The notes beneath the pieces are model-generated. The model saw only the letters and a program-made list of their open reading frames with translations. It had not been told where the DNA came from and made no database searches. Below, piece by piece: positions 24,141 through 30,171 of a DNA stretch of 64,000 bases. The first letter of the stretch is position 1; each line of letters begins with the position of its first letter. This DNA comes from Pseudozyma flocculosa PF-1 (taxonomy: Eukaryota > Basidiomycota > Ustilaginomycetes > Ustilaginales > Ustilaginaceae), in contig NW_006920874.1 of the NCBI RefSeq assembly GCF_000417875.1, forward strand, positions 83,137-147,136, written 5' to 3'. Both the position numbers and the translations under genes were made by a program.

Positions 24141-27100
24141 ATGGCACCGCCACGCATATCCCTCAAGTTCCTCGGCACGTCGTCGATGCCGAATGCCACT
24201 CGCAACTACTCGAGGTGAGTCCGCCATCCCCTCGGATACGACGGGACGAGGGCTATCGCCTATGTATGCCCACTCATCACTCCACATTATATCGCCCTCT
24301 CTCCGTCGACGAGCGAGTAGTCTGCTGGTCAAGGTCGACAACCACACCGTCATGGTGTAAGTGCCCCCTTCCCTTGCCCTCCGACCTCGACTCAGGCTCG
24401 AGTAGGCGATGCGACCGCGCGCTGGCATACGCTCACGCTTACACTCACGCCCTGGCCCACGCTCTCCTCGTCGTCGTGTACGATTGCCTCGCCTCCTTCA
24501 AAGCGACTGCGGCGAATCGACGCAGCGTCAATTCCAGGCCCGTTACATCGGCGGAGACGAAAAGATGGCAAACCTAAAGACTATCCTCGTCACCCATCTC
24601 CATGCTGATCGTGAGTTGTGCCGCCGCCCCATCCCGCCCCTCCGGGCGACCATCATCCATACCACCTCGATTCGGCAAGATGCGAACGCCAACGAAGTGG
24701 CCGCTGATGCATGGCCCTGCGACGGCGGCGCATTGACCGCTCGTCCGACCACTCTCACCTGCAGACGTGCTCGGCATTGTGCCGCTCCTCATGTCCATGA
24801 TGGGTCCCTCGGGCACCGCTGCCAGCGCCAGCGACGTGAGTACAGTCGCCGCTCGTCTGCCGCACTGATCTGTTGGCCTTCTGGTCGCTCACGATGTGCT
24901 CTCCGACCTCTTCGCTTGCCATTCTCATCATCATCACCTTCTTTCTCGACCTTGTGCAGGCTCCTAGGGTCGAGATCTTCGGTCCTCGCGGCCTGCGCGC
25001 CCTCATACGCACCACACTGACGCTGTGCTACTCCAAGCTGAGCGGAAAGTATGTCGTGCACGAGCTCACCTGGCCTCGGCCCGACACCCACACCAGCGCT
25101 AGCGGCGGCTCCATCCCGACATCCCTGCTCGACGAGCCAGATCGACCGATCCCCGCCCTCCCGCCGCACGAGAGCGAGTTGCCCGGCCGCGACATCCCGA
25201 TGGAGCTGGGTCCAGCCGCCTGGACCCGCTTCACCAGCTTCAAGGCGCACGGCCAGTGCCCGCGGGTGCACATCAGCGCTGCGCCCATCACTCACCGCTG
25301 CCCGACGCTCGGGTACACGTTTGAAGAGGAGTGGGCCACGTCGCCGCTCGACGCCGCCGTCCCGGAGCTGCTCAAGGCCAACGCTCAGGCGCTCCTCGAC
25401 GAGCGCAACATCCGCAACCCGCTCTCGCTCCTCCCACGCCTCACCCAGCAACGCGAGTCGATCCTCCTGCCGGACGGAACCATGCTCCACCCGCCGCCCC
25501 TCGATCTGCCCGGTCGCAAGGTCACCGTCCTGGGCGACACGTCGGACGCCACGGGCGGACTCCTCGACGGCCTCGCGGGAACCGAGGCAAAGGCACGCGG
25601 CATGGCGGCGCTTGCACGCGGCTCCGACGTGCTCGTGCACGAGTCTACCAACATCGCGCTGCCCGCTGCGCTTACAAGGGACGGCAAGGCCGAGTCAAGA
25701 CCCCAGGCCATGGTCAAGGCGGCTGAACGCGGCCACTCTACGCCGCAGGGCGCCGGCGCGTTTGCGGCACTGGTACGTGCCGGCTGCCTCATCCTCAACC
25801 ACTTTTCGGTGCGGTACCCGGCACCACCACACTACTTGCTTGGCAAGCAGATCGGCGGCCCCAACGACGATGGAGCATCGACGACCGCGAGCGGAACTGA
25901 GCGCAACGGCAGTGGTCCAGGAGGCGCGGGTCCCGGCGCGGCGAGCAAGCAGGGGCCGAGGCAGCTCGGCGAGCCCGAGCGGAGGAGCCTGGTGATGCGC
26001 GAGTTCGAGTCGCAGGCTGCCGAGAGCTGGCGTGCCGCCGCTGCTGCCGGCGAGGGCGGGAGCGGGGGCGCCATGACGACCGACGCCGATGTCCAGCCCG
26101 GCTTCGAGGTCAAGGCAGCGTACGACGGCTTCGTCTACGATGTCCCGCCCAGACCGAGGGTGGCGTCCCGCCACGTCCCCTTCTCGCGACCAGGAGAGAC
26201 GTGGCACGCCGACCCGCCGCACCCTGCCGCCTTTTCGACGGCGAGCTACGCCAGGAGGAGCAGCAAGAAGGCTTCGGCCAGGGCGGTGGTCGCTACCACC
26301 CCTGCGGCAGCCAAGTACCAGAGCCGAGACGGAGACTGGGACCCTTCGCCGTACCTGCTCGACGATGTGACAAGACGCGAGGCGCACGCCGTCGTGCTGC
26401 TCAACTCGCCCATCGGCGACGTGCAGAAGCGGCATCTTGTGCGCATCTGGGAGACGGCCAAGTACCGCCTGTGCGCGGATGGGGCGGCGAATCGGCTGGT
26501 CGAGGCGTTCGGGTACGACTGCTTCGTCAAGGGCACGCGCGACCAGATGCCGCTGCCGCACGCCATTGTCGGCGACCTCGACTCGGTGCGGCCCGAGGTC
26601 AAGTCCTTCTTTGCAGAACAGGTGAGTGACCCGGACAATCGCTGGCGGTGCGCACTCGAGCGTCTGACCTGACCGTCCCGCCCCCTCCTCCATCTGCCTT
26701 CGCGCATGCAAACCTTCTTACCACGACCATGACAGGGCGTCGAGATCCTGCTGCGGCCATCGCAGTATGCGACCGATCTGCAAAAGTGCATCCAGGCCGT
26801 CGAGGACCACGAGGCAAGCGCAGCCGGGGACGGCGCGAGGAGCTCAGAGCTGGTGCTGCTCATCTTTGGCGGGCTCTCTGGCCGTTTCGACCAGAGCGTG
26901 CACACGCTGCACGTGCTGTGGCAGCTGGCACCGGGTGCTGCGGATCTGGGAGGCGTCGAGGACCCGAGCGAGACCGAGGCGGCGGCGAGCGACGGGCGCG
27001 GAGGCAAGCTGCGGAAGCGGCGGCGGACGTACGTGGTGGGCGACGGCAGCATGGCGTGGCTGCTGTCGCCGGGCAAACACCGGCTGCGGATGTCGAGGGC

Positions 27101-27341
27101 GGTGATGGGCAAGACATGCGGCCTCCTCCCCCTCGGCGTAGGCAACGCCGGTGCAAGAATCTCGACAAAAGGGCTCGAATGGGACCTCGAGGGCGAGCCG
27201 CCATCGACGCTGGGCGGCTTCCTGTCGACGTCCAACCACCTCGCCCACCCAGACGGCGAGGTCGAGGTCGAGACAGACCAACCCGTCTACTGGACCGTCG
27301 AGCTCAAGCAGCAGGCCGGCGTGCTGGAGGAGGAGGAATAG
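24141..27341 (+). CDS. tRNase Z fused to thiamine pyrophosphokinase
   Basis: Six exons (24141-24214, 24321-24356, 24504-24610, 24765-24835, 24960-26621, 26736-27341) give 851 residues. Residues 1 to about 497 are a short-type tRNase Z, the enzyme that trims tRNA 3' trailers. The evidence is LKFLGTSSMPNATRNYSS, DCGESTQRQF, the metal-binding HLHADH at 68-73, LGDTSDATGG near 288, VHESTN near 323 and NHFSVRY near 377. From about 555 to the end is thiamine pyrophosphokinase, which makes thiamine diphosphate from thiamine and ATP. Its evidence is CADGAANRL near 603, VGDLDS near 633 and QYATDLQK near 660. One uninterrupted exon spans the junction. No in-frame methionine lies between about 26075 and 26546, so the second enzyme cannot start separately from this exon. 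Both sets of key residues look intact. A linker of about 60 basic, low-complexity residues joins them. Confidence 0.9.
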
Positions 27342-28514: not shown

Positions 28515-30171
28515 ATGGCTTCCCGAAGGCGTGCTGCCAAGAAGGGCGTCTCCTTCTGCCTCATGGTCGTCGGCGCCAGCGGTACCGGTGCGTCTTCAGC
28601 AATGGCTCAGCAACCGCTCCTCGGAGCTGATCGACCCCGTCTTCGCAGCACAGAGCGACTGACCCTCTCTGCTCTATACTATCCCTCCTTCCGCTGCCTC
28701 TCTGCTCTATACTCCTGGTTGCTGTCGTCCTTGATGCTGCTGCCGCTGCTGCTCCGTCCCGCTTCCCGACCAATAGGCAAGACCACGTTTGTCAACACCC
28801 TCTGCGAGTCCGAGGTCATTGGCCACAAGATCTCCGACAACCCCGAGACGGCCCACATCGAGGAGGGCATCCGGATCAAGCCCGTCCACGTCGGTGAGTT
28901 CCGCGCATGGCGCTTTGGCTTCACTAATCAGCTTCATGCTCAGCCCCTCCTCTGACCCTCTCTTCTGTCCGCCCTCTACCCCTCCGTAGAGCTCGACGAG
29001 GATGGCATGCGCATCGGCCTCACCATCGTCGACACGCCTGGGTTCGGCGACAACATCGACAACGAGTATGCGTGAGTCTCGGCTGCTGTCGCCGCTACTT
29101 CTTCGACCGCCCGCCAACATTCGGCCGCACAAGCAGCGTCCAGACCATCGACTGACACTTGCCACCGCCGTTTCCCCATTCACTCTCCCGTTTGCCACCT
29201 GCCAGCTTCTCCGAGATTGTCGGCTTCCTCGAGCGCCAGTACGACGACATTCTCGCCGAGGAGTCGCGCATCAAGCGTAACCCGCGTTTCCGCGACAACC
29301 GTGTCCACGCCTTGCTCTACTTTATCACGCCCACCGGCCACTCGCTGCGCGAGATTGACATTGAGCTTATGAGGAGGCTGAGCCCGAGGGTCAACGTCAT
29401 CCCCGTCCTCGGCAAGGCCGACAGCATGACCAAGACCGAGAGGCAGGCGTTCAAGAAGAGGGTGAGTGGCGCAGGCGGCACCGGCGGCGGCGGCGGGCAT
29501 GCATGCTCTGCAGCTGCTTGATCGGCGACAGCAGCACGAGGGCGTCGACTGACCCCACTCCCTGCCTCGTCTCATGCCCGATCCCCAACACTACTCTTGC
29601 GTCGCCCGCACCTCTGCAGATCATGGAGGACATCGAGCACTACGGCATCCCGGTCTACAACTTCCCCTACGACGTCGAGGAGGACGACGAGGAGACGATC
29701 GCCGACAACTCGGAGCTGCGCGCGCTGATGCCGTTCGCCATTGTGGGCTCCGAGGAGGAGGTGGTGGTCAACGGCGAGCCTGTGCGCGCCCGGCGATACC
29801 CGTGGGGCATCGTCGAGGTCGACAACCCGGCCCACTCGGACTTTGCGCGCCTGCGCAGCGCGCTGCTCAACACGCACCTGACCGACCTCAAGGAGATCAC
29901 GCACGACTTCCTCTACGAAAACTACCGTACCGAGAAGCTTTCGAGGACGGTGCACAGCGACTACGCCGACACGTCGATCCCCGGCGAGGAGCTGGCCAAC
30001 CAGAGCGTGCGGTTGAAGGAGGAGCAGCTGCGGAGGGAGGAGGACAAGCTGCGCGAGATCGAGCTCAAGGTGCAGCGCGAGATCCAGGAAAAGAGGCAGG
30101 AGCTGCTCGCAAAGGAGGAGAGCCTGCGAAACCTCGAGTCGCGACTGGCGGCCGCCTCGGCCAACGAGTAG
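28515..30171 (+). CDS. CDC11: Septin, Cdc11 type
   Basis: Five exons (28515-28587, 28777-28893, 28990-29071, 29206-29461, 29620-30171) give 359 residues. Septins are GTP-binding filament proteins of the bud neck and septum. The P-loop GASGTGKT is at 20-27 and is split by intron 1. DTPGFG marks G3 and GKADSMT is the G4 motif. YPWGIVEVDNPAHSDF is the septin-unique region. The last 60 residues (RLKEEQLRREEDKLREIELK onwards) form a coiled coil. The signature RNPRFRDNRVHALLYFITPT and the early start MASRRRAAKKG point to the Cdc11 class rather than Cdc3, Cdc10 or Cdc12. Four introns interrupt the first half, all GTGAGT or GTGCGT. The class assignment rests on motif recall; the septin identity is certain. 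Confidence 0.93.

Follow-up and report, generated by a model that had tools for sequence, protein, structure and literature searches.

The window analysed here, a 64,000-nucleotide stretch of contig NW_006920874.1 from Pseudozyma flocculosa PF-1, contains on its forward strand a gene in which a tRNase Z, a nuclease that trims tRNA, and a thiamine pyrophosphokinase (TPK), which activates vitamin B1, share one open reading frame. Its 851-residue product is identical to the P. flocculosa PF-1 protein PFL1_02172 (P0001 in our protein search). The gene has six exons and five introns, every one of them GT-AG, and reconstruction of the exons agrees with the coordinates, the 1662-nt fifth exon and the 851-residue product given in a preliminary description of this DNA. 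Three Pfam domains lie above gathering score in PFL1_02172: Lactamase_B_2 at residues 33-136, TPK_catalytic at 591-714 and TPK_B1_binding at 765-834. The features of the gene are listed below in window positions, with the four tRNase Z motifs of exon 5 placed by alignment to human ELAC1 (3zwf).

24141..24214, + strand: exon 1; start codon, residues 1-24 and most of 25, GTGAGT donor; encodes the first strand of the tRNase Z and the PxKxRN-type loop SSMPNATRN
24321..24356, + strand: exon 2; TAG acceptor, GTAAGT donor
24504..24610, + strand: exon 3; most of the HLHADH metal motif
24765..24835, + strand: exon 4; supplies the last His of HLHADH
24960..26621, + strand: exon 5; 1662 nt, stop-free from tRNase Z through the linker into TPK, contains the junction
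25533-25547, + strand: tRNase Z motif GDTSD
25638-25649, + strand: tRNase Z motif HEST (residues 323-326)
25731-25745, + strand: tRNase Z motif GHSTP (GHST, residues 354-357)
25797-25817, + strand: tRNase Z motif NHFSVRY
26151..26336, + strand: linker, residues 494-555, mostly disordered
26181-26198, + strand: linker motif FSRPGE, conserved among fused relatives
26337..27338, + strand: TPK, residues 556-851 (Pfam, human TPK1 alignment, structure comparison)
26472-26498, + strand: TPK motif CADGAANRL
26571-26585, + strand: TPK motif GDLDS
26736..27341, + strand: exon 6; remainder of the TPK catalytic domain, thiamine-binding domain, stop codon
26760-26777, + strand: TPK motif SQYATD
26880-26894, + strand: TPK motif GRFDQ
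27225-27236, + strand: TPK motif STSN

At 66% GC, where long antisense frames of 301-346 codons are likewise open, the open frame alone is little evidence of a fusion; what takes the fusion beyond chance is that relatives keep it together with a common linker motif. The preliminary description had considered that an intron might interrupt the linker. A pattern scan finds no donor-like GTRAG[TG] in exon 5, and there is no sign of a hidden linker intron.

The nuclease and kinase halves

The nuclease half keeps its metal ligands, with HLHADH (residues 68-73), H208, D289 and H377 matching human ELAC1 (3zwf) in the alignment, and the HEAT/HEST, HST and PxKxRN-type (SSMPNATRN) loops are all present and aligned with ELAC1 (loop names after passages of PMC2942849). 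The RNase Z fold extends over the whole domain, including the tRNA-binding arm, and 300 of the 307 residues of Bacillus subtilis RNase Z with bound pre-tRNA align to it in structure comparison; the fold-alignment rows come mostly from the nuclease half, and the lack of other folds among them carries no meaning. Judged by its sequence, the fused nuclease is the short ELAC1-type form and not an orthologue of Trz1. It lacks the N-terminal half of the Trz1/ELAC2 long form, there being no match to the long-form N-terminal pseudo-domain PF13691 up to E = 1, and it differs from ELAC1-type short tRNase Zs by a poorly ordered insert at residues ~394-430 and by the C-terminal kinase. The tRNase Z of the preliminary description, which named Trz1/ELAC-type genes as its counterpart in model fungi, is thereby narrowed to the short form, the long form being a separate gene.

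Searches of the organism's own genome covered the assembly of 23.05 Mb in 33 contigs in six frames, with only the best candidates scored. A separate long-form tRNase Z of the Trz1/ELAC2 type lies on the minus strand of contig C3 (89291-92169), where profile searches place PF13691 at 91987-92169 and PF12706 at 89291-89926. No second ELAC1-like gene was found in these searches, the fused tRNase Z half matching only its own exons and a weak candidate on C10 (E 0.043) that also has a metallo-beta-lactamase match. No second TPK was found in the genome either, and PF04263 matches only the two TPK exons of PFL1_02172. The cell thus seems to have one long-form and one short-form tRNase Z, the short one fused, and the fused TPK appears to be its sole detectable TPK. 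With this long form encoded elsewhere, the cell would not have to rely on the fused gene for tRNA 3' processing.

The kinase half passes the curated cut-offs of PF04263 (94.9), PF04265 (49.1) and TIGR01378 (87.3 against 76.4). Active-site residues D603, D635, D637, Q660 and D664 are invariant in alignment A1, and R700 and D702 are nearly so. Residues 1-243 of human TPK1 align with the fused kinase fold over 242 residues, and the four Mg-binding Asp residues and the Gln, Arg and Asp substrate residues are kept; the roles of these residues are taken from passages of PMC2515308 and their mapping onto PFL1_02172 is our own. A basic stretch of the fused kinase, GGKLRKRRR (~739-747), is missing from the human alignment, but similar stretches occur in standalone kinases of the subphylum. 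TPK is described in passages of PMC2515308 as dimeric in solution, the dimer forming the substrate groove, and as essential in Saccharomyces cerevisiae and Schizosaccharomyces pombe. Unlike THI80 and TPK1, the P. flocculosa kinase has no start codon of its own and is seen solely at the C-terminal end of a second enzyme, as one of its domains. Tnr3 of S. pombe is a two-enzyme Nudix-TPK protein and is similar in holding TPK within a larger two-enzyme polypeptide, but its partner is a Nudix hydrolase, and no Nudix match is found in the fused smut protein up to E = 1. The TPK gene of S. pombe is named as tnr3 in passages of PMC2515308.

Neither a TPP (thiamine pyrophosphate) riboswitch nor any other RNA element in the window matches Rfam at gathering score, and no tRNA genes were found in it. 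A downstream neighbour on the same strand begins at window position 28515 with MASRRRAAKKGVSFCLMVVGASGTG and apparently runs on into KTTFVNTLCESEV; we take this gene to be septin-like.

Distribution and origin of the fusion

Three protein searches were combined: one with the full-length product (40 proteins returned, 7994 candidates sharing the most words with it scored), one with the kinase region restricted by length to long proteins (26 returned from 5906 candidates) and one with the kinase only (907 proteins, statements on which rest on the best 120). The preliminary description had left the occurrence of the pairing in relatives to such a search of the product, and the fusion is found in at least 21 protein clusters, 10 of them from named Ustilaginomycetes. 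The species are P. flocculosa, Thecaphora frezii, Testicularia cyperi, Sporisorium reilianum, S. graminicola, P. hubeiensis, Ustilago nuda, U. loliicola, Violaceomyces palustris and Melanopsichium pennsylvanicum, and the orders include Ustilaginales, Urocystidales and Violaceomycetales. Both Pfam domains are present in 17 of the 26 long kinase proteins; three more (P0002, P0018 and P0019) are N-truncated fusion models and six have another partner or none; the 21st cluster, found among the best 120 of 907 kinase matches, is a Melanopsichium model (P0045) that begins within the C-terminal helix of the tRNase Z.

The two enzymes are separate in six named species of Tilletia, Malassezia and the Microstromatales (Tilletia controversa, T. 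horrida, Parajaminaea phylloscopi, Sympodiomycopsis kandeliae, Microstroma glucosiphilum and Malassezia vespertilionis). None of the named members of the 26 long kinase proteins from outside the Ustilaginomycetes has both domains, except P0026. This entry, labelled Cichorium endivia (chicory), is a damaged smut tRNase Z-TPK fusion, and most likely reflects fungal (smut) contamination of a plant assembly. No intact standalone kinase from a smut was found among the best 120 of 907 kinase matches; closest to the fused kinases in that set are the fused P0019 and P0045, a fragment, P0072, and a group made up of P0062, P0086, P0097 and P0158, whose members either are partial or show 43-59% identity. 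Five Malassezia proteins with TPK only (P0049-P0052 and P0078; 222-298 residues) are named 'ribonuclease Z' in NCBI, and the smut fusion may explain this name, which was probably copied from a fused smut orthologue.

The same fusion in relatives bears out the in-frame joining seen in the preliminary description, the two enzymes being apparently intact, and it bears on the assembly error that the description had raised. Merged gene models do exist among the TPK matches: P0035 (TPR) and P0044 (CS domain), judged by eye to have a Met three residues before a W near the kinase start, look like examples. The tRNase Z-TPK joint, however, lies within a single open exon, and ten named species show it, as do sequences from separate sources; on these grounds we reject an assembly or gene-model artefact, whose probability we regard as negligible.

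In quick maximum-likelihood trees of the two halves (31 sequences of tRNase Z, 54 of TPK) a single change accounts for the fused state in either tree, which fits one origin, most likely in the ancestor of the Ustilaginomycetes. Support from the Shimodaira-Hasegawa-like approximate likelihood ratio test (SH-aLRT) for the fused groups is 77 for tRNase Z and 87 for TPK, with no bootstrap, and Violaceomyces is the first branch among the fused kinases in the TPK tree, while the tRNase Z tree gives it no firm position. In both halves P. flocculosa groups with Thecaphora frezii (Urocystidales; SH-aLRT 98) and not with Ustilago and Sporisorium; NCBI files P. flocculosa under Ustilaginales, against this gene-tree grouping. 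An Arg/Gly-rich tail with at least seven RG/GR pairs ends eight of the 15 standalone short tRNase Zs examined (P0020-P0024, P0028, P0032 and P0034, which include Tilletia, Meira and Microstroma). Only 0-1 such pairs are present in each of 19 fused linkers, and linker and kinase together occupy the position of the Arg/Gly tail.

Both activities are already recognised by annotators in S. reilianum, whose database entry reads 'related to Ribonuclease Z / related to thiamin pyrophosphokinase 1'. No publication on a tRNase Z-TPK pairing was found among the matches listed, in which subscription journals are largely uncovered, and the terms Ustilago, thiamin and fusion are absent from the main text of a 2010 survey of fungal tRNase Zs (PMC2942849). 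The preliminary description knew of no account of the pairing; this agrees with the papers found, but not quite with the S. reilianum entry.

A probable single polypeptide and its alternatives

The linkers are 40-63 residues long, and structure prediction for P. flocculosa indicates disorder, with a predicted local distance difference test (pLDDT) score <50 at residues 502-548. A linker can be read in 20 proteins, and in every one of them the kinase is preceded by the tRNase Z C-terminus and the linker; 18 of the 20 linkers contain a F/Y-A/S/K-R/K-P/A-x-E motif, compared with a mean of 0.04 and a maximum of 2 in 2000 residue shuffles. Of 20 fused proteins, 16 have no Met closer than 84-414 residues to the W-D motif of the kinase on its upstream side, with 414 Met-free residues ahead of the kinase in Testicularia; all 15 standalone TPKs examined have a Met 2-14 residues before this motif. 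In P. flocculosa, codons 469-625 (26076-26546) are Met-free, and the length of this run, 471 nt, is as the preliminary description put it, but the run ends beyond the kinase motif and not before it, the part upstream of CADGAANRL being 132 codons, or 396 nt. By codon usage the P. flocculosa linker is only weakly coding-like, scoring higher than 97.8% of 1888 overlapping noncoding windows.

We favour, with a probability of roughly 0.8, a smut fusion of single origin in which one spliced mRNA would give one bifunctional polypeptide with independently working halves, one polypeptide being the best reading of the sequences in most species. Several observations weigh against it. The nuclease half scores 124.7 bits with the RNase Z equivalog TIGR02651 and does not reach the cut-off of 293, although the long form from the same genome, scored by its open frame, is likewise under it at 128.9, and the library serves bacterial and archaeal genomes. 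Support for the tRNase Z clade that includes Violaceomyces is only 77. The linker motif was picked post hoc from a viewed alignment in which most rows are close relatives, and the linkers of P0016 and P0017 do not have it. In codon usage the P. flocculosa linker scores lower than all 12 held-out blocks outside the linker. P0072, a kinase fragment that is smut-like (250 residues; 84% to a fused kinase), shows neither a tRNase Z part nor a W-D motif, though it looks like a broken gene model. Finally, in four of the 20 relatives a Met does lie close to the W-D motif, at a distance of 1, 2, 6 or 39 residues upstream.

These last two observations, together with the models P0002, P0018, P0019 and P0045 that begin within the tRNase Z part, would fit separate production of TPK, as an additional or even the main route, by way of an internal promoter, an alternative first exon or translation that starts internally. 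Given the positions of the Met residues, separate initiation is conceivable in those four relatives, and the kinase may be initiated separately in a few species. As a general account it is improbable, given the in-frame Met-free run of P. flocculosa, its exon 5 with no donor-like site, the 414 Met-free residues of Testicularia and the tRNase Z C-terminus and linker upstream of every kinase with a readable linker. A single precursor could instead be cut within the disordered linker to yield two ordinary enzymes in equal amounts; the low pLDDT would suit this, the short motif of 18 linkers could serve as a recognition site, and basic stretches such as LKRKHNE occur in most Sporisorium/Ustilago-type linkers. 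Cleavage is nonetheless unlikely, as no known protease site was identified in the linker and the LKRK stretch is absent from P. flocculosa, Thecaphora and Testicularia.

In the bifunctional polypeptide that we favour, TPK would have been joined behind tRNase Z with loss of its own start codon and promoter, and would now be expressed only as the C-terminal domain of the fused protein. Short tRNase Z is active as a homodimer according to passages of PMC5646807, and as each of the parent enzymes is homodimeric, the fused product probably forms a dimer of dimers or some larger assembly in which flexible linkers hold the parts together. Independent catalysis is the simplest account, because two dimers on flexible linkers could assemble without hindrance. 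Both activities would probably proceed independently in the cytosol, where passages of PMC3084753 place the human short form, one in thiamine diphosphate (ThDP) synthesis and the other in trimming or repair of tRNA 3' ends; a repair role would fit a short form that stands beside a long one. Most tRNA maturation in the nucleus and mitochondria would fall to the long-form tRNase Z, and the fusion would mainly fix equal, common expression of both enzymes. The bifunctional protein proposed in the preliminary description is favoured by the conserved fusion and the apparently intact enzymes, but its functional link between tRNA and thiamine finds no support here.

Alternatively, the nuclease half might have shifted to thiamine metabolism, for example as a zinc phosphodiesterase that splits adenosine thiamine triphosphate or diphosphate (AThTP, AThDP) into thiamine phosphates and AMP, in which case the fusion would combine synthesis with repair, much as the Nudix-TPK protein Tnr3 does. 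The phosphodiesterase range of RNase Z is wider than tRNA, because it also strips AMP from proteins (passages of PMC12663964); AThTP hydrolase is called putative in passages of a 2021 review (PMC8615392), and the separate long form would free the short one for such a role. Set against these points, the tRNase Z motifs are kept, the structural match to pre-tRNA-bound RNase Z is nearly complete, no sequence feature indicates a thiamine substrate, and the AThTP-splitting activities described for E. coli and animal tissues in passages of PMC8615392 are found in membrane fractions. We regard such a shift as a long shot, and it is similarly very doubtful that the smut tRNase Z half, alone or besides tRNA work, cleaves adenylated thiamine compounds or AMPylated proteins. 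If it did, the fusion would be a thiamine-chemistry unit, with a soluble AThTP hydrolase tethered to the cell's only TPK, the kinase whose products are thiamine diphosphate and AMP.

Possible other TPK fusions and significance

TPK may have been captured by other genes as well. In P0041 of Ceraceosorus (Exobasidiomycetes) the kinase lies behind an MgsA/MGS1 ATPase, and the MGS1-kinase junction is common to P0036 and P0076 by BLAST, the three proteins having 82-125 Met-free residues before the kinase. P0042 has an N-terminal Pil1 domain followed by the kinase and a C-terminal tail; Microstroma P0043 shares with it the tail and a short pre-kinase stretch, the Pil1 domain being seen in P0042 only, and the two have 145 and 99 Met-free residues before the kinase, respectively. 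On sequence grounds it is possible that the MGS1-TPK of Ceraceosorus and its relatives is an independent fusion, and that the PIL1 eisosome protein is a third TPK host gene in a Microstroma-like lineage. Repeated capture of TPK in sister orders is at this stage a lead and not a result. Should DNA evidence confirm the MGS1 and PIL1 cases, three unrelated genes of a single subphylum would have taken up TPK, which would then be a test case for the recurrent fusion of one housekeeping enzyme.

Across a fungal class that includes crop smuts, the only TPK detected is tied to a tRNA-processing nuclease. The fusion offers a clean natural case in which to ask what keeps unrelated enzymes fused over the long term, be it shared expression, metabolite channelling or a hidden second activity of RNase Z.
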